From assembly GCF_003315615.1 (NCBI RefSeq), contig NZ_PDCH01000012.1, positions 1 through 60,808 on the forward strand: 60,808 nt of DNA, in the 5' to 3' direction. The number at the start of each line of letters is the position of its first letter. Within the stretch, counting starts at the first letter, position 1. Origin of the DNA: Bifidobacterium xylocopae (GTDB lineage: Bacteria; Actinomycetota; Actinomycetes; Actinomycetales; Bifidobacteriaceae). The position numbers were made by a program, and so were the translations under genes. Below the pieces are notes generated by a model that worked only from the letters and a program-made list of their open reading frames with translations, was not told the origin of the DNA and did not search any database. Below are positions 1 to 15,788 of the stretch, in pieces.

Positions 1-879
1 TTCACTCGGTGGTAGGAGTGCGCCATGGTGGTTATGTGTTAGTCGCGGGTGGTAGTAGTGTGTCTCGCTGCGCAGCTGCTCTCGGTGTTAGTCGGTGCGG
101 GGTGGGTGGGGTGCGTCGTGCGATGTGTAGGGGTGGTGGGCGAGTCGTGTGCTTTGCGGGGTCGGTAGTGGCCGAAGGTGGGTGCTGGTCGGCGGAGTGG
201 GCGGGCTAGAACGTTGACATCACCGCTTGCAGTGCTTCCTGGGGCGTGGGTCACTGATAGGTGCTTTCGTTACAATTGCTTCCTTTTGCGCGTCTTTGTG
301 GTGTACAGTCCGCTAGCTCGAAGCGGCCGCTGTTAATCAGTCAGAGAAGGCCTTCTGCGGGATGACGCTACCAATCGGTGCGGGCTTATGCGGCAGATTG
401 CCTTCCGCCGTCATGCACCTTTGCTTGACAATCTTTAATACTGATTTATGCAGGACTGGAACCAGGCTAAAGCAACTTTTTATTTCCAGGGCCAGTAGGG
501 CCGGTCAAGTGGTTTCTGTCTGGGCTAGGGGGGGGGGGATTTGGATTCATGGTTAACTTCTGAAGCAGGGGAACCCGGGTTCTGTTCTGATGTCTGAGGG
601 GTTGGTCATCGGATATGAACTTCTATATTCCATAACGTTCCTGCTGTGTAAGTGAGTGGATTGCGGTATATTCACATAGGAACTGCATCCCTTGGGATTT
701 ACAAAGCCCGATTACTGATACCCTCATTTAGGGAAGTACAGTAATAATGGGGTGATTGAATTGTAAAAGAACAAACTTTGAGCTTATACTCCAAACGAAC
801 ATCTAGTTTTTCCTGAGCGTTTAGCATTGTTCAAAAACGATTCTATAGTGAGTATTATTCAACGTCGGAAGTGGTAACT
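1..879. other. Left-edge region without a recognisable gene
   Basis: The first ~210 bases are strongly G/T-rich on the + strand and carry short open frames on both strands with low-complexity products, which I do not accept as genes. From about 600 onward the DNA is AT-rich and full of stops. I see no conserved protein, tRNA or insertion sequence. The stretch from about 650 to 870 probably holds the promoter of the glycosyltransferase that follows, but no clear -35/-10 pair stands out. A run of 11 G (528-538) lies inside. Confidence 0.5.
528..538. repeat. Poly-G tract (G11)
   Basis: Eleven consecutive G in non-coding DNA about 340 bases upstream of the first glycosyltransferase. It is one of six G:C homopolymers of 11 or more bases in the window. 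Too far from the start codon to sit in the core promoter. Confidence 0.9.
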
Positions 880-1755
880 ATGTCATCTGTTTCCATTGTG
901 ATTCCAACCCTCAATGCAGGGCCTACAATAGGGCGGTTAGTGGATTCCCTTGCCGCACAGACCCTTGTTCCTGACAAGATTGTTGTCATCGACTCCAGTT
1001 CAGACGACGAGACAGTTCAAATTGCTGGTAATCATGGAGCTTCTGTTTTAACTATCTCTAGGAATGAGTTTGATCACGGCGCAACTCGACATGAGGCGTT
1101 TATGTCTACGTCGTCCACCTATGTGCTGTTTATGACCCAAGACGCAAAACCGGTAAACCAATCGTACATAGAGAATTTGACACAGCCTTTTTGCGATCCT
1201 GCTGTGGCAATGGTGTCGGGCCGACAAATACCTAGGTCAAACGCACGCAAGTTTGAAAAGCTAGTTCGACAGTATAACTACCCAAACCACTCTTTTACAA
1301 GAGATGTGTCTGATATTAAACAGTTGGGGATTAAAACTTTTTTTGTCTCGGATGTCTGTAGCGCGTATCGGCGAGAGGCATATTTATCATGTGGAGGGTT
1401 TGCGCGTCCTTGTAATACCAATGAGGATATGCTGATGGCAGCCAAATTTCTTAGGAATGGATATAAAATTGCTTATGCAGGCAATGCTGCAGTTATACAT
1501 TCGCACAATTTGTCACTCGGTGAAGAGTATTCGAGGAATAAGGCAATCGGAGTGTTCCTGGCTTCTCATAGAGATGAGTTGTACGGAGCATCTGCCGTAG
1601 GAGAAGGAGGGAAGATGGTCTTTAGGGTAATGAAACAACTGCTGGCTCAAAAGGATTTTTCGGAACTAAGTGCATTTGTGGCCGATTGTGCCGCCAGATA
1701 TCTGGGAAATCGGATGGGCGGAATCGAAGCAAACAGAAAGACTATTGGATACTAG
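880..1755 (+). CDS. Glycosyltransferase family 2 (rhamnosyltransferase-like)
   Basis: A 291-residue GT-A fold glycosyltransferase, probably adding a sugar to a lipid-linked surface-polysaccharide intermediate at the inner face of the membrane. The N-terminus has the family start SIVIPTLNAG (residues 4-13), then IDSSSDDET for nucleotide binding, the GATRHEA segment seen in RfbF-type rhamnosyltransferases, and a late NEDMLMA that fits the catalytic ED region. The ATG at 880 is chosen over an in-frame GTG at 871 because GGAAGTGG lies at proper distance and the family start follows directly. The gene is AT-rich compared with the core genes, which suggests transfer. A run of 11 C begins right after the stop codon. 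Donor and acceptor cannot be told from sequence; if it uses dTDP-rhamnose, the local rml genes can no longer supply it. Confidence 0.85.
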   Translation: MSSVSIVIPTLNAGPTIGRLVDSLAAQTLVPDKIVVIDSSSDDETVQIAGNHGASVLTISRNEFDHGATRHEAFMSTSSTYVLFMTQDAKPVNQSYIENLTQPFCDPAVAMVSGRQIPRSNARKFEKLVRQYNYPNHSFTRDVSDIKQLGIKTFFVSDVCSAYRREAYLSCGGFARPCNTNEDMLMAAKFLRNGYKIAYAGNAAVIHSHNLSLGEEYSRNKAIGVFLASHRDELYGASAVGEGGKMVFRVMKQLLAQKDFSELSAFVADCAARYLGNRMGGIEANRKTIGY

Positions 1756-1766
1756 CCCCCCCCCCC
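1756..1766. repeat. Poly-C tract (C11) abutting a stop codon
   Basis: Eleven C directly follow the TAG stop (1753-1755) of the glycosyltransferase, then a T and more C. Length change here would not alter the protein but could change the 3' end of the message. Confidence 0.9.
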
Positions 1767-3171
1767 TCCCCTCTAGCAATGCTGGAGGAATGAGTTAGAT
1801 TCCCTGCCGAGATTAGTGGTGCCTAACGAAATGATGCCCAATCTCGGGCATTGGAACGTGGTTTGGATTGGGCAAAAAATGTGAGCGCGGCATGAACGAT
1901 TGATAACGCCTTATCTGTGGTCACTTAGCAAAGCAGTCGCTGACTTAGCCCGGCAATGTCTGCATCCAGTAGCGACATAACCAAGCTGATCTGATGGCTT
2001 ATGCCGCACGTTTTCTCAGGTTCCAGAGCGATTAGAATGTGGCATGGCTGAAGAAACCTGGCTGAACCGCGGTGGTTGTGGCCCTGGTCGAAGACCACGC
2101 GGTGGGCTGGTAGGTGCGCAGGTCAAGATATATCTGAACTCAGGACCGCCGTTAGGTAGCATCGCCGCCTCTAGAGCGTGACGTGGGACAGGTCCGAGAA
2201 CATCGATAAGGGATTAAAGCGGATTGGGTAGAACAACTTCATGCAATGCCATATGTCTTATCTTGGCATGAAGCTGGCTGCACTGTCTGCATGGAATTTC
2301 AGACTGAAAAACTCTGGCGAATCCCTGTTCTCCTATGACATGGAAGAGCGAAGTCTGCCAGATGGTTTGGTTGCTGGCCTGCAGCGTTTGCGATGATTGG
2401 TGGAAGTGGCTCAAGGGGTGTGTCGTGTTACAGCAATACCCGCGGGGTCCGTAATTTGCCAACAGCAGGATATATGCAAGCGCCCATAGTCGCGTACGGC
2501 ATCTTTGCTGGCCGATGCAACGAGCTTGCCCCCCCCCCCCCCGCTATCAACGAGTTGTTCGAATCTTTGCACGTGTAGCTTCTAGCATGCCAAAACCATA
2601 ACGAGCTGGGTTTGAAATGCAGAACCAGGATGATTTCATCGGCTTATCGACAATGCGCACTGAAATCGGCACGTGATGTTTGACTGATCGCTCATGCATG
2701 CAGTGTTTAGGACTTCGACCCACTGAACAATCTTACTGTGCTGCGTAGGGAACAGAAGTGCTATGCAGTCACCAGCATAATGGGGCATATGGTTCAGACA
2801 CTGATTGGTAAGGCCACAGTCACCAAGACCGGCACCGCGACAGAGTAGATTAGTGGCAGTGGATAACCATTTAGCTATCTTCTGCCTCCGTTGTATCCAT
2901 ATAAGTCGTTTAACATTGTAAATGCTATAAATGGTTCAACAACTTGTATATCGGCCATTTACCTCCACATAGATTATGCCTTGCTATCGTTTTTTAAAAA
3001 AACTAGCGCTGTGTTAAGTTAATCGGTCATTAGTCACTATGCAGCTGAGGTGTTATTCAAGAGTTTCGTATGTTTACGACCAATTAGAACGAGCTTATGA
3101 ATTTTTGTCCATCAATTAACGAATACTTCGATTCTATAGATAGAGTATGTCAAATGGAGGAGGCAGAAGTC
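1767..3171. other. Decayed intergenic region, no intact gene
   Basis: About 1.4 kb with no intact gene. Around 2216-2396 two overlapping + frames give protein-like stretches of 40 to 50 residues (for example one starting MSYLGMKLAAL at about 2258), interrupted by stops, which suggests the wreck of a former gene. I could not match it to a family. A run of 14 C lies at 2529-2542. The last 150 bases before 3172 are AT-rich and likely hold the promoter of the next glycosyltransferase. Confidence 0.5.
2529..2542. repeat. Poly-C tract (C14)
   Basis: Fourteen C, the longest homopolymer in the window, inside decayed non-coding DNA between the two glycosyltransferase genes. Confidence 0.9.
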
Positions 3172-3882
3172 ATGAGAATCAGCGTGGTGATGGCTACATA
3201 TAATGGTGAGAAATATTTAAAAGAACAGATTTATTCGATACTGTCGAACCTGCGTATTCAAGATGAACTCATCATAGCAGATGATGGATCAAAGGATCAG
3301 ACCCAATCAATTGTATTGGAAATAGCCGAGAGTGATTGCAGGGTTCGTCTACTGCGCGACCATTCCCACAAAGGGGTTATACGAAATTTCTCTTACGGTT
3401 TGACATGCAGTAAGGGTGAAATTATTTATTTGGCTGACCAAGATGATATCTGGCTAAAGACAAAAGTATCGGAAGTGATGGAGATTTTTAAAGAGCATCC
3501 AGAAGTCTCATGTATTCTGCATGATGTCGCAATAGTCGATAAAAATTTGCAGATAGTTGAGCCGTCCTTCTTCCACCTTCGAGGCTCCCAGGCCGGCTTT
3601 GTCCGAAACATATTGAAAAATTCCTATATGGGTAATGCAATGGCTTTCCGCAGGAATATGCTGACCAAGATATTGCCGATACCATATAGTGTGCCTATGC
3701 ATGACCAATGGATAGGATTGATAAATGATAGGTATGGCAAGGTTCTACTCTATCCTCAAGTTCTAGGGCTCTATAGAAGGCATGACGACAATGTCACTGA
3801 GCTTACGCATGGATCTATTAAAGATATGCTGAAGAAACGTATTCAATTATTGCAGTGTTTGTTTTCAAGGTCGAGGTTTTAA
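3172..3882 (+). CDS. Glycosyltransferase family 2
   Basis: A 236-residue GT-A glycosyltransferase. It opens with ISVVMATYNGEKYLKEQI, followed by the nucleotide-binding IADDGSKDQT and a DXD-like LADQDDIW (about residues 85-92), the pattern of WcaA/RfbG-like enzymes of O-antigen and capsule assembly. No transmembrane anchor is visible, so it is probably a peripheral cytoplasmic enzyme. I chose the ATG at 3172 because GGAGGAGG lies 9 to 16 bases upstream; the frame stays open to 3097 and longer forms are possible. It ends with a basic tail. Codon use is AT-rich, unlike the core genome, and it stands alone between decayed stretches, so its partners in the original locus may be lost. Confidence 0.85.
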   Translation: MRISVVMATYNGEKYLKEQIYSILSNLRIQDELIIADDGSKDQTQSIVLEIAESDCRVRLLRDHSHKGVIRNFSYGLTCSKGEIIYLADQDDIWLKTKVSEVMEIFKEHPEVSCILHDVAIVDKNLQIVEPSFFHLRGSQAGFVRNILKNSYMGNAMAFRRNMLTKILPIPYSVPMHDQWIGLINDRYGKVLLYPQVLGLYRRHDDNVTELTHGSIKDMLKKRIQLLQCLFSRSRF

Positions 3883-4776
3883 CCGAACCATACTCCGTAT
3901 TGCTCAGTATGCCGGATGTGCTCGATAACGATTTAGCCAACTGTTTGCGATTTGCCAGAAATAAGTGTGTTGGTGGTTGTGGCTCAAGTTTGTGGAAGCC
4001 TGTTATCTAATGGAGAGTCGCCCCCCTCCTACTATATTAGTCAATATCAGTCAGTCTAGAACAATCGGAGATAACGATGTTCTACTATGGGCCAGTCACA
4101 CCCGCAATAGCGGCATAGCACCATCTGATCGATGTCAATATAGCCCGTCTGAGTGACGCGATCGGCAATCATAATGGGTGCGTCCGCCGCTGGCTTAGCA
4201 ATCGTCCCGGATTGCGGAACTGTTTTTTGGCCCTCGTAGCTCATGTGGCTGCTACATCAGTGGGACAATAACGGCATCAAATTTTCCTGTTATCTCCCCC
4301 CAGGCATCATCCGCGACAGAATCGCACCGACGCTATGGTAGGATTTAACCTACCCGGATATCAATGGCACATCTCCTGAGGGTCTCGGAGGACACTGCTC
4401 AAACCAGGTGTTAGGGGATCGGCTACCTACCGGGAATCGATAGTAGTGTGGCACTCGCATGTAGGTAGCAGGAAGTACCCGTCTAGAGGCATCATATTGT
4501 AATATGAACGTGCGGTCACGGAATATGTTTAAAAGAGAGCAATATTGGAATGCTAATTATGGAAAGGCTATTAGTGTTTAGCTTTCGAATTGCGTGAGTG
4601 CTTTCGTGGTTGAATAAGATGTCTTAGAAGTTGGTAGTATTCTCCCTTGGGGTTTCGCCAGCCTTTTCCTTGGGACCGCGATAATTGTTTTCTGGGGGTC
4701 AGCGTTATTGTTGAGTTTGGCATAGTCGTGAGAAGAGGAATGAAGTGATAGCCCCTATAAATATTCTCGGGTTCCT
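3883..4776. other. Intergenic region without a supported gene
   Basis: About 0.9 kb between a glycosyltransferase and the flippase gene. Short open frames on both strands (for example a − strand one at 4056-4244 with a CRYCGC cysteine pair) have no recognisable family. The lower half, about 4500-4776, is AT-rich and probably holds the promoter of the flippase-lic operon. No insertion-sequence ends were seen. Confidence 0.45.
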
Positions 4777-6162
4777 ATGAACCGCAAATCTCTTCTTTCG
4801 AATATGTCTATTGCCTTCTTCTCGCAAGGCATCAGCATGTGCATGAGTGCGTTGCTGACCTTGGTTATACCTAAGATGCTCCCCATTGAACAGTACGGAT
4901 ACTGGCAACTTTATCTATTTTATGTTTCTTATGTGGGTTTCTTCCATTTAGGGTTGAGCTCCGGAATATACCTGAAGATGGGTGGAATTTCGAGAGACAA
5001 GATGGATAAAGCCTCAGTCAAGGCGCAGTTCATATTTGGAGTAGGCTACCAATCCATCATTGCTTTGATTATCGTGGCTCTGGGTTTTATCCTGCAACCA
5101 GGCCCAAGTAGGTTTTTCGTCATCGCGCAAACTGGAATTTATTTAGTTTTACAGAACGCTGCAACCTATATGTCAAACGTTCTGCAATGCATGAACGAAA
5201 CGAAGAAATCCTCTTACTCTATAGTGATAGAGCATGCGGCATTTTTTATACCCTGCGTTATATTTATAGTTACTGATGTTCGTTCGTTCCGACCGTATGT
5301 ATTCGCCAATACAGTTTCGACTCTCATCCAACTAATCTATTGCATATGGCACCTCCGCGAATTCGTCGGCGCGCCTTGGCTTGGCATCAATACTGCGGCT
5401 CGGCAAGGGGTAGACAGCATCAAAGTTGGCATCAATTTGATGTTGGCTAATGTAGCGAGCATGCTTATCTTAGGCGTCGCCCGATTCTTTATAGATTTGA
5501 ACTGGGGTATTGAAAAGTTTGGGAAGCTTTCATTAATCTTCTCTTTGGTGAATTTCTTTCTTGTTTTTGTAGAGCAGGCCAGTATTGTGTTGTTTCCTGC
5601 GCTGAGGCAGAGTGGCGAGCAAAGTGTGAGAACATTTTTTGCCAAGGCTCGTAATGCCATGAGTCTGCTGTTCCCGCTCGTGTACTTGATGTACTTCCCG
5701 ATGGTGTGGGTGCTGGGGCTGTGGCTGCCTGGTTATGAGGATAGCTTTCACTATCTCATCCTTTTACTTCCTGTGTGTGTGTTTGATAGCAAAATGAGCA
5801 TTCTTTGCGTCACTATTTTCAATGTGATCAGACGCGAAAGAAGCATGCTAGGGATTAATGCATCAGCCACATTCTTGAGTTTCTTGTTAACCATGTTCGG
5901 CATCTATTTGTTGCATTCCATCAGCTCTGTACTTTGTGGTGTGATGATTGTCATTGTTTTGCGGAGCATATTTTCAGAAGTTTATATAGCGCATCTATTC
6001 GGGATGAAGAAGAGCGCTATTGCGTTTGGCGAGTTAGTGCTTACAATTGTTTTTATCGTTGCTGCCTATCTTCTTTCAGCTTGGAGTGCTTTGCTGGTCT
6101 ATGGTGCCACTTACCTTGTATTTGTAAGCTGTTTCCGTAAAAGTATCAAAGCCTCGGTTTGA
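4777..6162 (+). CDS. Wzx-type polysaccharide flippase (MATE/MOP superfamily)
   Basis: A 461-residue integral membrane protein with about 12 to 14 hydrophobic segments spread along its whole length, which fits the polysaccharide transporter branch of the MOP superfamily. Members flip lipid-linked repeat units or teichoic precursors across the cytoplasmic membrane. The N-terminal pattern (LLSNMSIAFFSQGISM, then LLTLVIPKMLPIEQYGYW) is typical: the PxxLxxxxYGxW segment recurs in Wzx/RfbX proteins. The gene is followed after 49 bases by licD, then by licC-licA and licB in the same direction, so it may move a glycan that carries phosphocholine. AT-rich relative to the core. The substrate is inferred only from context. 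Confidence 0.85.
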   Translation: MNRKSLLSNMSIAFFSQGISMCMSALLTLVIPKMLPIEQYGYWQLYLFYVSYVGFFHLGLSSGIYLKMGGISRDKMDKASVKAQFIFGVGYQSIIALIIVALGFILQPGPSRFFVIAQTGIYLVLQNAATYMSNVLQCMNETKKSSYSIVIEHAAFFIPCVIFIVTDVRSFRPYVFANTVSTLIQLIYCIWHLREFVGAPWLGINTAARQGVDSIKVGINLMLANVASMLILGVARFFIDLNWGIEKFGKLSLIFSLVNFFLVFVEQASIVLFPALRQSGEQSVRTFFAKARNAMSLLFPLVYLMYFPMVWVLGLWLPGYEDSFHYLILLLPVCVFDSKMSILCVTIFNVIRRERSMLGINASATFLSFLLTMFGIYLLHSISSVLCGVMIVIVLRSIFSEVYIAHLFGMKKSAIAFGELVLTIVFIVAAYLLSAWSALLVYGATYLVFVSCFRKSIKASV

Positions 6163-6211
6163 TACTTATCCTAAGTCAAGCCAGCAACTGACAGTGGAGG
6201 GTCATTTGAAG

Positions 6212-7051
6212 ATGTCGGGTAAAAAGCGAGAGTTAACAACAAGGGAAATTCAGCTTGCAACGTTAGAGATACTAAAGCAGTTCATCGAAATCTGTGAGGA
6301 TAATGATTTATGCTATTACCTCGCATATGGTTCATTAATCGGCGCGATACGTCATCAAGGTTTTATTCCTTGGGATGATGATTTGGATGTCTACATGCCT
6401 CGACCAGATTATAATAAATTGCTCGACTTCTTTGACGATCCGCAGCATGATACTGGTTCTCTTCTGGCAATTCATACGACAGAGAATAAGTTGATTCCCT
6501 TCCTTATTACACGCATCAGCGATACGCACTATAAACAGGTAGGAGAATATGACGACGAAATACCGCAAATGGGCACCTTTATCGACATCTATCCACTAGA
6601 TGGACTCTATGGCAGCAGCAAAGAGGCTCATAGAGAGAGCAGGAAAGTGCACACCATTTCATCAAATTATATGCGAGCAGGCAAATTCTCGACTCCCTAT
6701 AAACTTGCAAACCCACTTATGCGTGTGGTTAAGAGTATTTGGCCGCTCATACTGAAGGATGCTCGTACTTACTGGGAAGAACTCTCTCTCTACACTACTG
6801 TAGAAGAGTATGAACAAGCCGACTATGTTGCTTGCAAGATTTGGAACGACACCAAAGGTTCGCTGATAGTCGATGAGAAAAGCGATTACGGCGAAGGCAA
6901 GCAGGCAATTTTTGAAGGCCTGAAAGTGCGCATTCCTGATAACGCTGATGCGATTCTACGTCGCATCTACGGTGATTATATGCAGCTTCCGCCGGTAAAA
7001 GAACGAATAGGGCATCATTATTATTCAATAGTACCTAGAGATGACAACTAG
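6212..7051 (+). CDS. licD: LicD-family phosphocholine transferase
   Basis: A 279-residue LicD/nucleotidyltransferase-fold protein. LicD enzymes move phosphocholine from CDP-choline onto cell-surface glycans such as teichoic acid or lipooligosaccharide. The family signature is clear at the N-terminus: LAYGSLIGAIRHQGFIPWDD followed by DLDVYMPR, which carries the metal-binding acidic residues. Start ATG 6212 has GGAGGG in front; a GTG at 6194 is a less likely alternative. It lies between the flippase and the fused licC-licA gene, whose product would make CDP-choline, and licB, which would import choline, so all steps of the route are present. LicD relatives may also move other phospho-groups, so the phosphocholine assignment rests partly on the neighbours. 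Confidence 0.85.
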   Translation: MSGKKRELTTREIQLATLEILKQFIEICEDNDLCYYLAYGSLIGAIRHQGFIPWDDDLDVYMPRPDYNKLLDFFDDPQHDTGSLLAIHTTENKLIPFLITRISDTHYKQVGEYDDEIPQMGTFIDIYPLDGLYGSSKEAHRESRKVHTISSNYMRAGKFSTPYKLANPLMRVVKSIWPLILKDARTYWEELSLYTTVEEYEQADYVACKIWNDTKGSLIVDEKSDYGEGKQAIFEGLKVRIPDNADAILRRIYGDYMQLPPVKERIGHHYYSIVPRDDN

Positions 7052-7222
7052 TCATTACGTTTCCTGCGAGAGTAGATCGCTTCGCGATGTCTCAGAGAGG
7101 CAAGCGATGATGAACGAAGTGGGTGGTCCTAAAAGCGTGCACTCAAGGATGGCATTGGTCAGATTCGCGAGATTTGCTTCTTTGGCATAATATGTTCAGA
7201 TGTTGGGGTAAAAGAGAAGTAA

Positions 7223-9010
7223 ATGAACATAATCGAGGTGGCCTTGCTAGTAAAGAAGCAATTTCTTACGCTTAAAGCTCTATACAATAACTCGAACAGT
7301 ACTCAGCGGGAATTAGCAAGTATCACGGGTCTTTCTCTGGGAAGCGTGAATTCGGCCGTGAGGAGTTTGCGCGCTTGCCATTACATCGCTGATGGAACGG
7401 TGACGGAGGAAGGCGTTGAGGCTCTACAGCCGTACAAGGTCTGCAATGCGGTTATTCTGGCGGCTGGTCTTTCGTCCAGGTTTGCGCCTATATCGTACGA
7501 GAAGCCGAAAGGTCTGCTTTGTGTGCGAGGCGATGTGCTCATCGAGCGTCAAATTGAACAGTTGCAACGTGCCGGCATTAAGGATATCACTGTCGTGGTC
7601 GGCTATAAGAAAGAACAGTTTTTCTATCTCCAGAAGAAATACGGCGTTAGCATCGTTGTCAATGATGAATACGTGCTACGCAACAACAACAGCTCTCTGT
7701 GGGCAGTCCGTGACAGGCTGAGCAATACATATGTTTGCTCCAGTGACGATTATTTCGCTAGTAATCCTTTTGAAAAGTATGTGTGGAAGGCATATTATGC
7801 TGCTCAATATGCAGCCGGTCCGACAAAAGAGTGGTGTCTCACAGCAGATTCCGAAGGCAGGATTACCGATGTGAATATTGGCGGGTCAGACAGCTGGTAC
7901 ATGCTAGGTCATGCGTATTTTGACCGTGCTTTTTCGCGGAGTTTTATTCATATTTTGGCCGATGAATACGATTCACCGGAGACCGCGGACGAGCTCTGGG
8001 AAGGTATCTATAAAAAGCATCTGAATGTGCTAGATATGGATTTGAAGCCATACCAGGACGGAATAATCAATGAGTTTGATTCTCTAGATGAGCTTGAAGG
8101 GTTTGATCCGCATTTTCTGCAGAATGTAGATTCCGAGATCTTTGACAATATCATGAGTGTATTGGGATGTGGGAAGGATGAAATCCGTGAAATGTATCCT
8201 CTTAAGCAAGGGCTCACGAATCTTTCTTGCCACTTTGCGACAGATAAAGGCGAGTTCGTCTATCGACATCCAGGCGATGGAACTGACAGAATAATTGATC
8301 GAGCAGAAGAAGTTAAGGTGCAGAAAATTGCCAGTAAACTCCACCTTGATAAGACATTTATATATGAGGATCCATTAAAAGGTTGGAAGATTTCTGCTTT
8401 TATTCCGAATTGTAAAAATCTTGACCCGCACAACGAGGCGCAAATCCAGGAAGCCATGAAAATGGCAAGAAAGTTGCACGATTCAGGTGAAAGCATCAAC
8501 CGCGTTTTCAACTTTTACGATGAGGCCAAGAATTACGAACGACTGTTACGCGAGTGTGGCCCCATTGAAATAAAGGGCTACGGTGGGATGGCTCAGAAGG
8601 TGGAACGGCTTGAGCAATTTGTTGAGCGGGATAATGCGCCGCACTGTCTGTGCCATGTTGATTTTCTCGGAGCCAATTTCTTAGTTGGCAAAAATGACGA
8701 TATTTCACTGATTGATTGGGAGTATGCCGGAATGGGAGATTATGCGATTGATTTCGGCACTTTCTGCGTGTGCTGCCAGCTTGATGATGAACAGATTGAA
8801 TTCGCACTGGAAGCTTACTTCGGGAGGACGCCAACTGATGAGGAACGGCGTCATAATCTTGCTCATATTCAGTTGGCAGGTTGGTGTTGGTATCTTTGGG
8901 GCTTGTATATGGAGTCAGTCGACTCGCCCATTGGGGAATGGCTGTATATCTATTATAAATATGCGCAGGGTTTCTTGGACCGTACGCTGAAGATGTATGA
9001 GGAGGCCTGA
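7223..9010 (+). CDS. Fused winged-helix / CTP:phosphocholine cytidylyltransferase (LicC) / choline kinase (LicA)
   Basis: A 595-residue three-domain protein. Residues ~10-70 form a helix-turn-helix of winged type (STQRELASITGLSLGSVNSA). Residues ~75-300 are a nucleotidyltransferase with LAAGLSSRFAP, the conserved lysine in EKPKGLL and an acidic SSDDYF metal site, as in LicC. Residues ~320-595 are a choline/ethanolamine kinase domain with the Brenner-type loop CHVDFLGANFLV (H478, D480) and the metal-binding DWEYAG (D498). It would phosphorylate choline and then activate it with CTP to CDP-choline in the cytoplasm for LicD. No strong ribosome site precedes the ATG at 7223 (the frame's first Met), though GAGAAG is close. 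The licB start follows directly after the stop. The DNA-binding domain may mean autoregulation or a structural role; not testable here. Confidence 0.88.
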   Translation: MNIIEVALLVKKQFLTLKALYNNSNSTQRELASITGLSLGSVNSAVRSLRACHYIADGTVTEEGVEALQPYKVCNAVILAAGLSSRFAPISYEKPKGLLCVRGDVLIERQIEQLQRAGIKDITVVVGYKKEQFFYLQKKYGVSIVVNDEYVLRNNNSSLWAVRDRLSNTYVCSSDDYFASNPFEKYVWKAYYAAQYAAGPTKEWCLTADSEGRITDVNIGGSDSWYMLGHAYFDRAFSRSFIHILADEYDSPETADELWEGIYKKHLNVLDMDLKPYQDGIINEFDSLDELEGFDPHFLQNVDSEIFDNIMSVLGCGKDEIREMYPLKQGLTNLSCHFATDKGEFVYRHPGDGTDRIIDRAEEVKVQKIASKLHLDKTFIYEDPLKGWKISAFIPNCKNLDPHNEAQIQEAMKMARKLHDSGESINRVFNFYDEAKNYERLLRECGPIEIKGYGGMAQKVERLEQFVERDNAPHCLCHVDFLGANFLVGKNDDISLIDWEYAGMGDYAIDFGTFCVCCQLDDEQIEFALEAYFGRTPTDEERRHNLAHIQLAGWCWYLWGLYMESVDSPIGEWLYIYYKYAQGFLDRTLKMYEEA

Positions 9011-9011
9011 C

Positions 9012-9959
9012 GTGAAGGTTGGGAGTCTAGCTGGTGCCCTGTGGGGCTTGGATACGGTTGTTCTAGGTATGGCAATGTTATTGAGCCCATACTCTTCGTT
9101 GTCGCAGTCTTTTGCATTTGCGGCTTTAGTAGCAGCCTTTGTGCATGATGCGGCCTGTGCAATCTGGCTTTTCCTGTATATGGGCCTTAAGAGGCGTCTT
9201 TCAGAAACATGGAAAGGACTCAGAACACGGAGTGGTCTTGTAGTCGTGTTCGGAGCGTTGTTAGGTGGGCCGATTGGCATGACGGGCTACGTTATCGCCA
9301 TAAACAATATCGGAGCCGGTTATACAGCCATCATATCATCACTGTTCCCTGCTTTCGGGGCATTGTTGGCTTATATCTTGCTCAAAGAACGTATGAGCAT
9401 ACCTCAACTTGGTGCTTTGGTAGTAGCAGTGCTTGCCGTCATGGCTATGGGGTGGTTTTCGGCACCAATCACGCAGCACGGCAATACGGTTTTGGGAATG
9501 ATTGGTGCTTTGCTGACGGTGTTGGGCTGGGGTGCGGAAGGTGTGCTTGGCGACTGGGGAATGACCGCAGGAGCTGTAGACAATGAAACTGCCATACAGA
9601 TTCGCGAAACAGTGTCCGCGCTCGCTTATGCAGCAATAGTGTTGCCTTTGTTCAAGGCCTGGCCCGTCGCTTTGGATGTTTTGCCGTCAAAGGCGACCCT
9701 GGTAGTAGTGCTTGCCGGGCTGGCTGGAGCAGCTTCATACTTGACATACTATAAGGCTATTGATCTTATTGGTGCGGCTCCATCGATGGCACTGAATATC
9801 TCATATTCAGCTTGGGCTGTACTCTTTGCGTTTGTTCTGCAGGGTACTGTACCCAGCGTAATAACAATAGTGTGTTGTGTTGTTGTACTGGGCGGATCGG
9901 TATTTGCCTCTTGTGATTGGAAGGATATCTTCCGTCATCCCTCGGTGTCGCAGGAATAG
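9012..9959 (+). CDS. licB: LicB-type choline permease (DMT/EamA superfamily)
   Basis: A 315-residue membrane protein with about 10 hydrophobic helices in two EamA halves. The N-terminus (GALWGLDTVVLGMAML) and mid-region GYTAIISSLFPAFGALLAY-type segment match LicB, the choline importer of lic loci. I prefer the GTG at 9012, one base past the licC-licA stop, because GAGGAGG sits 8 to 9 bases upstream; an ATG at 8997 would overlap the previous gene. Tight coupling to the licC-licA gene supports an operon: import, phosphorylation, activation and transfer of choline. DMT proteins transport many solutes, so the substrate rests on context. Confidence 0.85.
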   Translation: MKVGSLAGALWGLDTVVLGMAMLLSPYSSLSQSFAFAALVAAFVHDAACAIWLFLYMGLKRRLSETWKGLRTRSGLVVVFGALLGGPIGMTGYVIAINNIGAGYTAIISSLFPAFGALLAYILLKERMSIPQLGALVVAVLAVMAMGWFSAPITQHGNTVLGMIGALLTVLGWGAEGVLGDWGMTAGAVDNETAIQIRETVSALAYAAIVLPLFKAWPVALDVLPSKATLVVVLAGLAGAASYLTYYKAIDLIGAAPSMALNISYSAWAVLFAFVLQGTVPSVITIVCCVVVLGGSVFASCDWKDIFRHPSVSQE

Positions 9960-10403
9960 CGAGTGAATGAGATCCATAGCGCTGTAGTTTTTATTGAGTT
10001 CCTGATCGGTGATTTGTGCTGAACAGAAAAGAGTTCCAACAGCGGGGCAAGGTTCCCCAGTGGCCTACGAGCTACCTATCCGTGGCTGGTTGAATTAACC
10101 GTGGCAGAAAATTTTAAACGCGGGTTAGGATTTTACGCGAATTGGCTTATGGCAATTCAAATATCGGGCTTTCGACTTTGTCGACAGCATGCGTGAAGAC
10201 CAACCGGCGAACCAAGTCAACAAGCCAGCAAATTATGTAGATAGCAACAGACAAACGATGTGTGTCGGCACCACCGGGCTCCCTTGGCTTCCAAGCAGCT
10301 GTATAGCATCAGCGCCTATAGGTTTATTGCGCGAACGATTCTTGCTACCGAATATGGAGGTGCGTCGCGGCTATGTATAGGATTTGCGGTTACGATATGA
10401 GTT
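9960..10403. other. Intergenic region, no gene seen
   Basis: About 440 bases between licB and the rmlB remnant. I see no conserved frame, tRNA or clear terminator. The change from AT-rich to GC-rich DNA begins here. Confidence 0.5.
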
Positions 10404-12184
<1,781 letters not shown>

Positions 12185-12280
12185 AAGAACGTCGAGTGTG
12201 TGTACGGGCTCAGTGTGGCGTTAGGCTGCCAGTGCTGGACAGGTCGATAGTTAAGCGACAACAATGAGAGACGATCGCAT

Positions 12281-13147
12281 ATGAAGGGGATAATTCTCGC
12301 CGGTGGGTAGGATACGCGGCTGTATCCATTGACGACGGTGACCTCGAAACAGCAGCTGTCGGTCTACGATAAACCGGTGCTCTATTCCCCGCTGGGTGTC
12401 CTAATGATGGTTGGCAGCCGCAACATACTGATCATTGTGACTTCACTGTGCTTGCCGAATTTTGAGCGCCTTTTAGGGAGTGGAGAGCTATTCGGAGTCC
12501 GATTCTCATACAAAGTTAAGCCTAGCCCTGACTGTCTGACGCAGGCCTTCATCCTGGGAGAGAATTTTATTGTCGGAGAGCCCTGTGCGCTGGCCTTTGG
12601 TGACACCACATTCTACATTCTACGGTAACGGTCTGGGGTGCACCCTGCGCTCGGCCGCCGACATATCTCATGGGGGTACGGTTGTCGGCTATTATGTGGA
12701 TGATCCCGAGCGTTACGGTGTTGTTGAATTGGACGAAGACCACCGGGTGGGGAGTATCATTGGAAAATCAAAACGCCCAGCAAGCAACTATGTGATCACC
12801 GGACTCTATTTCTATGACGGCAGGGTGACCGAGTTTGCCGAGCAGGTCCAGCCCTCTGCCAGGGGCGAGCTGGAGATCACCAATTTGAATCGGATGTATT
12901 TGGAAGACGGATTGCTCACAGTGTGCACCTTAGGCCGTGGCTACGTTTGGCTGGATACAGGTCCACAGATCTTTCTTATGCAGCTGTTGAAATCGTGCGT
13001 ATCGTGCAACATGTTCAGGGTCCGCCCATAGCTATTGTCGAGGGAATGGCCTATGAGGATGGATGGATTTCCCATAGGCCAATTGTTGAAAGCCGCGGAG
13101 TAATACGGGAAGTCTCCGTATGGCAGGCACTTTATGGATGTGGCTGA
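12281..13147 (+). pseudogene. rmlA: rmlA remnant (glucose-1-phosphate thymidylyltransferase)
   Basis: Starts MKGIILAGG with an in-frame TAG at the codon that should complete the GGxGTR nucleotide loop, then DTRLYPLTTVTSKQ, VYDKPVLYSPLGVLM, LPNFERLLGSGELFG, AFILGENFI and FGDTTFY. A frame change at about 12,620 leads to NGLGCTLRSAADISHG and a long well-preserved stretch (YYVDDPERYGVVELD, SNYVITGLYFYD, ARGELEITNLNRMYLEDG, LGRGYVWLDTG). Two more frame changes give the tail YGKSPYGRHFMDVADK near 13,147. It would have activated glucose-1-phosphate with dTTP. Substitutions at otherwise fixed residues show it has been drifting without selection for some time. Confidence 0.9.
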
Positions 13148-13522
13148 TAAGAGATATAGGTGCTGTAGCAGCGGTTCTTGTACCGGATTGGTCGATGAGG
13201 ATACGGCGGCCACAAGTGGTCTTCTGAGTCAGGCGACCAGTGAATCGTGCGTGTCAGGTCATTGTTCTTTGCCTGGGATGCTCTCTTGGTTTCACCCAAG
13301 TCTCAGAGATTGGCCCGTTTATCAGGCTTTGGCTAGGGCCAGCCGCAGCCCACGTAGATCGGTTCGAATTCGGACCGTGGCATTTCAGTTGAGCGTGGCC
13401 AAACCTTTGGCTGAGTGAAGGATAAACGCACTACCGAGCACAGGTGCGCACGATGGTAGTTGGTAAGTTGGTCCGTTCCTGTGGAAGCTGACCTCCGCGC
13501 AGGGGGCACGGGAGACAGACGG
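13148..13522. other. Intergenic region after rmlA
   Basis: About 375 bases between the rmlA remnant and the 3' end of dcd. Short open frames occur on both strands but none resembles a known protein. It marks the boundary between the decayed polysaccharide locus and stable core genes. Confidence 0.5.
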
Positions 13523-14104
13523 TCACCCCTCCACGTCGGCCTTGTAGAAGTTGATGTAGGACCTTGACGGCGTCGGCCCTCGTTGGCCTTGGTAGTGGGA
13601 ACCGGTGCCTTGGGACCCATAGGGGTGCTGGGCGGGGGAGCTGAGCTGGAAGAAGCACATTTGGCCGATTTTCATGCCGGGCCAGAGCTTGACAGGCAGG
13701 GTGCTCACGTTGGAGAGCTCCAGGGTGATGTGGCCTTCGAAGCCGGGGTCGATGAATCCGGCGGTCGAGTGGGTCAGGATGCCCAGCCGGCCCAAGGAGG
13801 ACTTGCCCTCCAGGCGGGCGGCGATGGTCGCGTCGAGCTTGACATACTCCCAGGTTGATCCGAGCACGAACTCACCGGGATGGAGAATCCAGGGGTCCCC
13901 GGCGGGCACTTCGAACTGCTCGGTCAGGCTGCCTTGGTCCTCGGCCGGGTCTACATAGGTGTATTCGTGGTTGTTGAACAGGCGGAAGAACCGATCCAAA
14001 CGTACGTCGACGCTGGCGGGCTGCACCATCTCGGGCGTCCACGGTTCGAGGGAGATGCTCCCTGATGCGTGGGCAGCCTCTATGTCGTGGTCGCTGAGCA
14101 GCAT
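13523..14104 (-). CDS. dcd: dCTP deaminase
   Basis: A 193-residue trimeric dCTP deaminase/dUTPase-fold protein, which converts dCTP to dUTP (or directly to dUMP in bifunctional forms) for thymidylate synthesis in the cytoplasm. The core is well kept: [11 protein letters not shown] start, [18 protein letters not shown], then [20 protein letters not shown] with the catalytic glutamate-containing LEGKSSL and [13 protein letters not shown] region. Length is normal for the family. The ATG at 14,104 is preferred over an upstream in-frame ATG at 14,134 because AAGGAG lies 7 bases before it and the family begins MLLSDxDI. It is the first core gene after the decayed locus, on the opposite strand. Confidence 0.95.
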
Positions 14105-14350
14105 GCGTATTCTCCTTACCATCGCCGTTCTCATCTGGTTCCCAGTCTACTTCCATAGGAGACTCCTTGGGTCCGGCCTCTAGCTGGTTTCAGTGGTGTT
14201 TGGTGCCCCTTTCCCAGGGGATTCACAGGATAAACATGTCATCTTCCAAGTCTGGCCTGTTTCACTGTACTAAGTCGGCATGGTGCAGGCCGTGTCGGTT
14301 GAGTTGCATTGGAAGGACTCGAGAGGTTGAATATCCCCACCTCATCTCTG

Positions 14351-14384
14351 CCCGGCGGTCTCTCTTCTCCCGCCGGGTTCTTTT
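14351..14384. terminator. Hairpin with T-rich tail (terminator-like), copy 1
   Basis: An 8-bp perfect stem CCCGGCGG / CCGCCGGG (14,351-14,358 and 14,370-14,377) followed by TTCTTTTC. It resembles a Rho-independent terminator on the + strand. A near copy lies 249 bases downstream. Confidence 0.6.
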
Positions 14385-14451
14385 CTGAGGGGAGATTCCG
14401 AGGGCTAGGTACCAGCAAGCTAGATATTTACAAAAATATTACAAAGTTCCC

Positions 14452-14568
14452 ATGAAACTCTCAGACAACTTCACAGCTTCGCTGAGAAATGCCTGCTTTA
14501 CTGTAGTTGTTGGCAGGAAAGAGGCCGACGGAGTGATTACTGATGTGATTGAGTTCGGCGGTCACTGA
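14452..14568 (+). CDS. Possible 38-residue peptide between two terminator-like hairpins
   Basis: A short open frame ATG 14,452 to TGA 14,568 encodes a 38-residue peptide starting MKLSDNFTASLRNACF and ending IEFGGH. It starts downstream of an AT-rich stretch (TAGATATTTACAAAAATATT) that could be a promoter and lies between two similar hairpin terminators. No good ribosome site is visible and I do not recognise the peptide. It could be a chance frame within a small RNA or leader. Confidence 0.25.
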   Translation: MKLSDNFTASLRNACFTVVVGRKEADGVITDVIEFGGH

Positions 14569-14598
14569 CAACTTAAGTTTCTTTTCTCTTCCTCTCTC

Positions 14599-14632
14599 GG
14601 CCCGGCGGCCCCCATCCGCCGGGCTTTCTATA
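14599..14632. terminator. Hairpin with T-rich tail (terminator-like), copy 2
   Basis: A 9-bp perfect stem GCCCGGCGG / CCGCCGGGC (14,600-14,608 and 14,616-14,624) followed by TTTCTATATT. It shares the CCCGGCGG core and the pyrimidine-rich TCTCTTCCTCTC flank with the hairpin at 14,351. Confidence 0.6.
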
Positions 14633-14714
14633 TTGCACAGGCGGCCTTTGCCGTCGGCTGCCCAGATGGTCCCATCCCAGGGGCTTTATCGGTGGTAACG
14701 ACGATAATGAAAGC

Positions 14715-15788
14715 ATGACTGTAGCGACCCCCGAGCGATACGCGCTCATGCTGGACTCGGCCAGGCGCGGCGGTTACGCCTACCCGGCCATCAATGTAAC
14801 CTCCACCCAGACCCTCAACGCGGCCCTGCAAGGCTTTGCGGATGCTGGGTCGGATGGCATCATCCAGGTGTCGGTCGGCGGTGCCGCCTACCTGTCGGGG
14901 CGGCGGGTGCAGGACCGGGTGGCTGGTTCAATCGCCTTCGCCCGCTTCGCCCATGAAATGATCGCCCACTACCCGAGCATCACGGTGGCACTCCACACCG
15001 ACCACTGCGCTCCGCAATACTTGGATGAGTGGGTGCGTCCCCTTCTGGCCTATGAGAAGGGGCAGGCGGCGCGGGGGGAGGGGCCGCTCTTCCAGTCTCA
15101 CATGTGGGACGGCTCCACCCTGCCCTTGGATGAGAACCTGCGTGTGGCCCGTGAGCTCCTGGATGCTTCCTTGGCCGCCCATACGGTGCTGGAGATTGAA
15201 GTGGGCGCGGTCGGCGGTGAGGAGGACGGCCATTCGGCAGCCATCGACGAGCGTCTCTACTCCAGCCCGGCGGATGGCGTCGCCGTCGCGCGGGCCCTGG
15301 GTCTGGGTGAGGAGGGTCGTTACATGGCCGCCTTCACTTTCGGCAACGTCCATGGTTCCTACAAGCCGGGTGTGGTCAAGCTCAGGCCGGATCTTCTGGG
15401 GCGGATTCAGCGGGCGACGGCCGATGCGGCTGCCCAGGGGAAACTCCCGGATTGCACGGTGAGGCAGGCGGACGCCGCACCGGGCGGCAAGCCCTTCCTT
15501 TTGGTCTTCCACGGCGGCTCCGGTTCCCGCCCGGAGGAGATCGCCCAGGCTGTGAGCCACGGGGTGGTCAAGATGAATGTGGACACCGACACCCAATATG
15601 CCTTCACGCGGGGTGTGGCCGGCCACATGTTCGTCAACTATGACAAGGTCCTGAAGGTTGATGGCGAAGTCGGCGCCAAGAGCGAGTATGACCCCCGCTC
15701 CTGGGGCCGCGAGGCCGAGGACTCCATGGCCGCACGTGTGGTCGAGGCTTGCCGGCGGCTGGGATCAGCGGGCCGCGCCCTCAAGTAG
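14715..15788 (+). CDS. fba: Class II fructose-bisphosphate aldolase
   Basis: A 357-residue class II, zinc-dependent aldolase that splits fructose 1,6-bisphosphate to dihydroxyacetone phosphate and glyceraldehyde 3-phosphate. Seen: YAYPAINVTSTQT near the N-terminus, the zinc-ligand segment ALHTDHCAP, EIEVGAVGGEEDG, TFGNVHGSYKPG, LVFHGGSGS (phosphate binding and zinc His) and KMNVDTDTQYAFTRG. Length is normal for the longer (type A) class II enzymes. The ribosome site is weak (GAAAG). In bifidobacteria, which lack phosphofructokinase and use the fructose-6-phosphate shunt, it likely serves mainly in the reverse or anabolic sense. It is followed 98 bases later by purA in the same direction. Confidence 0.95.
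   Translation: MTVATPERYALMLDSARRGGYAYPAINVTSTQTLNAALQGFADAGSDGIIQVSVGGAAYLSGRRVQDRVAGSIAFARFAHEMIAHYPSITVALHTDHCAPQYLDEWVRPLLAYEKGQAARGEGPLFQSHMWDGSTLPLDENLRVARELLDASLAAHTVLEIEVGAVGGEEDGHSAAIDERLYSSPADGVAVARALGLGEEGRYMAAFTFGNVHGSYKPGVVKLRPDLLGRIQRATADAAAQGKLPDCTVRQADAAPGGKPFLLVFHGGSGSRPEEIAQAVSHGVVKMNVDTDTQYAFTRGVAGHMFVNYDKVLKVDGEVGAKSEYDPRSWGREAEDSMAARVVEACRRLGSAGRALK

Follow-up and report, generated by a model that had tools for sequence, protein, structure and literature searches.

The lic genes of the window

The window analysed here is the whole of one contig (NZ_PDCH01000012.1, 60,808 nucleotides (nt)) from the 1.85-Mb, 98-contig genome of Bifidobacterium xylocopae (GCF_003315615.1), which encodes a phosphoketolase whose top matches, 3ahc and 3ai7, we take to be Bifidobacterium phosphoketolases. 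Four open frames follow each other on the plus strand (4777-6162, 6194-7051, 7223-9010 and 8997-9959), and a first-pass annotation had described them as a flippase, LicD, a LicC-LicA fusion and LicB, all in one direction between 4777 and 9959. Frames, domains and folds agree with this description, except that the fusion bears an N-terminal helix-turn-helix (HTH) domain (PF13412) that had gone unreported. We consider it likely that these genes encode a Lic-type phosphocholine pathway with a self-regulating central enzyme; the binding to the operator, the direction and signal of the regulation, the product and the glycan acceptor are what we infer. The features are as follows.

4777..6162, + strand: MOP-superfamily flippase of the Wzx/MurJ fold (AlphaFold2 model and Foldseek; no Pfam match)
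6212..7051, + strand: LicD-family phosphotransferase from its likelier start, ATG 6212; the open frame begins at GTG 6194 (PF04991, 134.3 bits)
7193..7229, + strand: candidate operator TGTTCA-N25-TGAACA, arms 7193-7198 and 7224-7229, conserved before LicCA genes
7244..9010, + strand: HTH-LicC-LicA fusion, likely TTG start; listed open reading frame from ATG 7223
7253..7438, + strand: winged helix-turn-helix domain, fusion residues 11-72 (PF13412, 30.4 bits)
7445..8098, + strand: predicted LicC cytidylyltransferase domain, residues 75-292 (1jyk, E 3.7e-38)
8135..9007, + strand: predicted LicA choline kinase domain, residues about 305-595 (4r77, E 2.8e-19)
8997..9959, + strand: predicted LicB choline transporter, EamA/DMT fold (7b0k, E 3.5e-27; PF00892)
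871..1755, + strand: family-2 glycosyltransferase, upstream surface-glycan gene (PF00535, 79.1 bits)
3097..3882, + strand: family-2 glycosyltransferase, upstream surface-glycan gene (PF00535, 92.1 bits)

Pfam recognises HTH, NTP-transferase and choline-kinase domains in the fusion. At the E-values listed above, residues 75-292 match LicC of Streptococcus pneumoniae (1jyk), residues 308-578 match pneumococcal LicA (4r77), and residues 6-301 of LicB match the pneumococcal protein 7b0k. In the structural model of the fusion the LicC domain has a template-modelling (TM) score of 0.90 to 1jyl and the LicA domain one of 0.83 to 4r77, both by target length. The domains themselves are modelled well (predicted local distance difference test (pLDDT) 85.4, and 92-95 by blocks in the winged-helix domain); their relative placement is poor (predicted TM score 0.54) and confidence is low in the LicC loop at residues 83-93, so that we make no allosteric claim. 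Choline import, choline kinase and activation with cytidine triphosphate (CTP), as first proposed, find good support in sequence and fold: the fusion contains a LicC-type CTP:phosphocholine cytidylyltransferase, phosphocholine being the putative substrate, and a predicted choline kinase in which catalytic motifs and choline box are recognisable, and LicB is a predicted choline importer.

TTG 7244 is a more probable start of the fusion than ATG 7223, because the ATG of an open 588-residue frame in the nearest relative, our genome G002 (fusion 71% identical), aligns with TTG 7244 and because ATG 7223 overlaps the right arm of the candidate operator; in both the window and G002 the start so placed sits 14 nt past that arm. 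A broken LicCA in G002, where a stop had been flagged, is rejected, since the stop precedes the ATG of the open frame. The licCA and licB frames overlap by 14 nt. The four genes were initially taken as one module, and they are indeed adjacent and on one strand, but they probably form two transcription units, licCA-licB being one of its own, because a conserved operator-like site precedes licCA and three genes separate licCA-licB from flippase-licD in G002.

The candidate operator before licCA

The candidate first showed when sequences upstream of licCA from the window and from bifidobacterial relatives were set side by side: TGTTCA and TGAACA stand 25 nt apart in them. The wider search for relatives gave at least 593 candidate stretches, of which 531 were confirmed and 80 returned; altogether 118 rows were gathered, matches shorter than 480 residues and repeat fetches of one gene being excluded. 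Among 112 distinct upstream segments, 81 carry TGTTCA-N24-26-TGAACA with at most one mismatch. When the seven bifidobacterial rows are set aside, the site is found in 74 of the 105 held-out segments, exactly in 38, at spacings of 24 (23 segments), 25 (43) and 26 (10), with none at 21-23 or 27-30. These 105 rows are related rather than independent, and span Bifidobacteriaceae, Coriobacteriia, Actinomycetaceae and several Bacillota. Markov-resampled segments gave a mean of 0.17 of 105 and at the most 1; over the same 105 segments reversed arms gave 3 and the two direct repeats 1 each, and the best of 119 other hexamer permutations reached 9, being the same site shifted by one base. Random segments from the same loci gave 2.6%, at a looser spacing of 20-32 and with the true sites left in. 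The core GTTCA is nearly invariant, partly through row selection, the middle is AT-rich with no sequence in common, and a TATAAT-like hexamer lies inside or just after the site in 47 of the 81 segments (an uncontrolled count). In the window the site at 7193-7229 is the single exact match across 60.8 kb, where 0.01 would be expected.

Most likely the fusion acts on its own transcription unit, repressing or tuning it according to choline or its products, because HTH, cytidylyltransferase and kinase are joined in one chain and a conserved inverted repeat precedes its own gene. We lean towards an HTH-LicC-LicA protein that is a trifunctional enzyme-repressor: it would sense choline or CDP-choline (cytidine diphosphate choline) and, by way of one operator conserved from bifidobacteria to oral streptococci, would link surface decoration with phosphocholine to the supply of choline. 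Bifidobacteria would then display phosphocholine only with choline available. Several observations weigh against this. The site is missing at one mismatch from 31 of the 112 segments (15 of these have it with two), no clear -10 hexamer lies between the operator arms in the window, and most licD genes in the fetched loci are without a site of their own. The link between HTH and operator is moreover one of co-conservation: a hidden Markov model built from the A1 rows finds the winged-helix domain in 110 of 112 rows, and the two HTH-less rows (p 0.07) are uninformative. This leaves room for another regulator that binds the repeat before licCA, the fused HTH being purely structural, the more so as the operator is putative and the comparison of HTH absence with site absence rests on those two rows; we nevertheless judge it unlikely, given that the site precedes HTH-fusion genes of many families with differing lic neighbours and that HTH proteins commonly bind their own promoter.

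Among the other lic genes, a site within one mismatch lies ahead of 4 of the 46 distant LicD matches and none of the 6 closer ones; for LicB the figures are 2 of 7 (distant) and 1 of 46 (closer), for the flippase 0 of 5, and for random segments 143 of 8900. The LicD cases that have it (loci L061, L126, L047 and L052) have divergent promoters common to licCA. The site is thus chiefly a feature of the HTH-LicCA gene. No more than a hint of a wider regulon comes from eight exact sites away from HTH-LicCA genes, hand-picked from the exact sites in the fetched loci: one precedes a LicB-like transporter (L043), two a second LicC-like protein of 609-638 residues (L105, 7203-7239; L115, 2942-2978), and five lie before or within other genes. 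As a separate observation, six loci hold two LicCA-type copies (L046, L047, L051, L076, L086 and L125), and rows without a site come from four of them (L046, L051, L076 and L086).

Acceptor and transferred group

By sequence the flippase matches nothing in Pfam or the PDB. Its model, built from a seven-row alignment (pLDDT 86.6), was matched by Foldseek to MurJ (7wax, E 2.2e-7) and WzxE (9g9p, TM 0.67/0.74); the alignment shows, by eye, a resemblance to the TM2 and TM8 motifs of TacF (PMC13385700), and the assignment goes as far as the MOP fold. Among 189 genomes of Bifidobacteriaceae, 15 have a flippase relative and 3 of these LicCA (p 0.10), for which reason the protein looks like a general glycan flippase. 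LicD covers the whole PF04991 model and is the sole LicD-family match found in the genome; it probably starts at ATG 6212 and not at GTG 6194, because the latter lies, by eye, inside a purine-rich stretch. A joint search of the module proteins in other bifidobacteria was suggested at the outset; across the family, LicB at E 1e-20 or better accompanies LicCA in 14 of the 15 LicCA genomes and is found in none of the 174 others (Fisher p 2.9e-20). LicD (PF04991), present in 45 of the 189, occurs in 15 of 15 against 30 of 174 (Fisher p 5.7e-11), and in all of the 15 but G126 a LicD lies within about 8 kb of LicCA. The p values for co-occurrence are uncorrected for relatedness.

The proposed transfer to a glycan stands as far as a LicD-family transferase lies beside other lic genes, the glycan acceptor and the phosphocholine product being presumed. 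Against it, LicD-family proteins can transfer other phospho-groups, and LicCA is missing from 30 of the 45 LicD-bearing family genomes. The flippase and LicD might hence serve a different phospho-polymer, licCA-licB having arrived separately alongside. Genome G164, with a 47% identical flippase relative beside LicD and no LicCA, speaks for such an arrangement, as does the lack of a clear association between flippase and LicCA; yet LicD is the only match to its family found in the genome, and its full-length relatives at 62-63% identity are confined, among the 189 genomes, to the LicCA-positive G002 and G125, which makes a separate arrival improbable. In G125 (locus L124, 2859-5116) the flippase and a LicD copy are each split over two frames, and a second, full-length LicD adjoins licB.

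Alternatively, CDP-choline might feed a lipid, LicD placing phosphocholine on diacylglycerol or a glycolipid, as does Mf1 of Mycoplasma fermentans, and not on a polysaccharide. The diacylglycerol cholinephosphotransferase Mf1 (NF045866) is indeed the only NCBIfam match of LicD, but its 98.9 bits fall far under the cut-off of 225, and none of the six proteins scanned reaches the cut-off of any NCBIfam model. Furthermore, licD begins at most 49 nt after a glycan flippase, and the G002 locus holds, besides licCA-licB and flippase-licD, a priming sugar transferase, glycosyltransferases, a DUF6056 protein and acyltransferases. This composition supports a polysaccharide acceptor and indicates that the two pairs can separate. 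We therefore hold a lipid acceptor to be unlikely.

As to the group transferred, the LicA residues given in PMC4364537 were mapped through the 4r77 alignment. The catalytic residues D176, N181, D194 and E196 are identical in the fusion (D480, N485, D498 and E500), as are Y197, W251 and W254 of the choline box (Y501, W556 and W559), the fourth aromatic, Y268, being replaced by W573; V178 is L482. In the LicC domain W136, which we take with Y190 to be a choline-box member, is unchanged, and so is E216. Some substitutions count against phosphocholine: the LicA rim residue E213 is C517, and LicC D105, D192 and Y190 are S173, E260 and L258. In LicC, D105 and D192 are tied to the room for choline, and Tde-PntC has Glu at both (PMC6697681). 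Since one of these pocket sites is larger here (E260) and the other smaller (S173), size alone does not decide; and since Ari-PntC has the aromatic box too (PMC6697681), which also tells against our reading, the box cannot separate LicC from PntC. The best NCBIfam model for the fusion is, in addition, a guanitoxin kinase (86 of 357 bits).

A decoration with phosphoethanolamine or aminoethylphosphonate rather than phosphocholine, which could draw on the Glu shared with Tde-PntC at LicC D192, on the loss of LicA E213 and on a kinase family that Pfam calls choline/ethanolamine, appears very unlikely to us, because the LicC domain matches LicC at E 3.7e-38 and PntC at E 3.4e-7, LicB matches the pneumococcal choline importer, the LicA choline box is still aromatic, and phosphoenolpyruvate (PEP) mutase (PF13714) has no match in the genome, while 11 of 14 control genomes gave matches. 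With no PEP mutase found, a phosphonate is unlikely and the phosphonate route is rejected; nor does LicC match PntC more closely, a closer match of LicD and LicC to families for other phospho-groups being part of what the first-pass annotation had named as its refutation.

Taken together, we favour a phosphocholine pathway in which LicB would bring in choline, the LicA domain would phosphorylate it, the LicC domain would convert phosphocholine to CDP-choline, LicD would transfer phosphocholine to a sugar of a lipid-linked surface-glycan repeat and the Wzx-type flippase would export the decorated unit. The fused winged-helix domain would bind TGTTCA-N25-TGAACA immediately before licCA-licB and, in the manner of NadR, tune their transcription to the level of choline, phosphocholine or CDP-choline. 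By its testable features the module is of the Lic-1 kind; the chemistry is plausible and the product presumed.

It counts against this picture that the glycan locus is incomplete: two glycosyltransferases lie upstream, then the contig edge, window position 1 being the contig start. The stretches between the glycosyltransferases and the flippase (1756-3096 and 3883-4776) are without long frames and decayed in appearance. On the other side, short frames at 10706-13028 match RmlB-type (GDP-mannose dehydratase-like), RmlD-like (weak, E 0.027) and RmlA-type (nucleotidyl transferase) genes; next to the lic genes, they are probably the remains of a dTDP-rhamnose set. Consensus promoters (15 observed, 11.9 expected) and terminators (4 observed, 6.3 expected) over 3800-10700 do not stand out. 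Phase variation through tandem repeats is rejected, as the three short arrays in 1-15000 all lie outside 4777-9959. Pneumococcal-type choline-binding surface proteins gave an empty result without a working control: Choline_bind_1 repeats have no matches in the genome and none in the control genomes.

Distribution, ancestry and known systems

Such a module had been called unexpected in Bifidobacterium, which holds insofar as the fusion is rare. In the genus sample it has matches in 3 of 27 genomes, nearly complete in 2 (its own and G002) and kinase-only in G017. Of the 189 family genomes 20 have a match, which covers nearly the full length in 15, counting its own genome, and the kinase alone in 5; in the phylum sample 24 of 396 match, 18 over most of the fusion, again counting its own, and 6 kinase-only. 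The pathway is patchy, not unique: the matches listed include Adlercreutzia, Collinsella, Olsenella, Atopobium, Actinomyces, Schaalia, Gardnerella, Streptococcus oralis and Parvimonas, thus Gardnerella within the family as well as Coriobacteriia, Actinomyces and oral streptococci. Kinase-only LicA relatives, 22-28% identical, occur in family members without the fusion (L003 of G017, and L017-L020). Viral carriage is rejected, IMG/VR viral contigs having given three distant matches only; two of these contigs (L120 and L121) have LicA-like then LicC-like genes (segments of 27-46%), L120 also a LicD-like one, and are possibly viral or misassigned contigs with lic genes.

The suggestion that AT-rich DNA points to transfer has fared unevenly, transfer itself being backed by the tree. 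A FastTree phylogeny of 115 rows, three further duplicates having been dropped and no bootstrap made, places the seven bifidobacterial sequences from six genomes in a clade (98) nested with Olsenella, another Coriobacteriaceae row and Collinsella aerofaciens (96), and nine Gardnerella-type sequences, two of them named, in a separate clade (100), which fits an exchange with Coriobacteriia. The lic region (3-10 kb) has a GC content of 41-50%, and the DNA past 14 kb one of 50-67%, mostly above 57%; but the bifidobacterial homologues range over 45-60% (licCA: G126 60%; G125, G131 and G122 51-54%; G002 46%), so that low GC marks this locus and G002 and not the module, and AT content is weakened as a proof of transfer.

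Phosphocholine of the pneumococcus reportedly binds C-reactive protein and the platelet-activating factor receptor of the host (PMC4364537), and in the gut commensal Clostridium immunis a phosphocholine-modified exopolysaccharide is said to affect interleukin-22 (PMC12355684). A version in bifidobacteria would add a further commensal in which this decoration could be tested, and the conserved repeat offers a short, testable DNA site for control of the pathway in many commensal and oral bacteria.

The pathway is already known; the HTH fusion with its candidate operator is the new part, and it is widely shared. In a literature search that covered subscription journals sparsely we found no report of phosphocholine decoration in Bifidobacterium or of an HTH-LicC-LicA regulator. 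Actinomyces gerencseriae is reported to have Lic-1 enzymes (PMC10434233, a paper whose main text lacks the words "bifidobacter" and "fusion"), and Gardnerella vaginalis 409-05 is reported to have a LicD protein (PMC2928729). PntC has a related LicC-like fold, shown by Tde-PntC 6pd1/6pd2 (PMC6697681), whereas here PEP mutase was not found and the sequence match is far weaker than to LicC. In Lic-1 (licA, licB, licC and licD of Haemophilus influenzae; lic1/lic2 with tacF of S. pneumoniae, where lic2 unites licD1, licD2 and the flippase gene tacF; PMC4364537) the four activities are alike; in contrast, LicC and LicA are here fused, an HTH stands at the N terminus of the fusion, a conserved inverted repeat lies ahead of its gene, and the lic genes are without a repeat array suggesting phase variation. 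The closest counterparts are the HTH-LicC-LicA proteins of Coriobacteriia, Actinomyces, Gardnerella and S. oralis, full-length and 44-61% identical among the matches listed, often with LicB next and with differing LicD partners. A LicC-LicA fusion is also reported from Treponema denticola. In layout, not in homology, the nearest parallel is NadR of enterobacteria, which unites an HTH repressor, a nucleotidyltransferase and a kinase in one protein and regulates salvage of nicotinamide adenine dinucleotide: both systems combine HTH, nucleotidyltransferase, small-molecule kinase and a salvage importer, but the substrates differ, the enzymatic domains here are LicA and LicC, and the regulation here is a proposed one.

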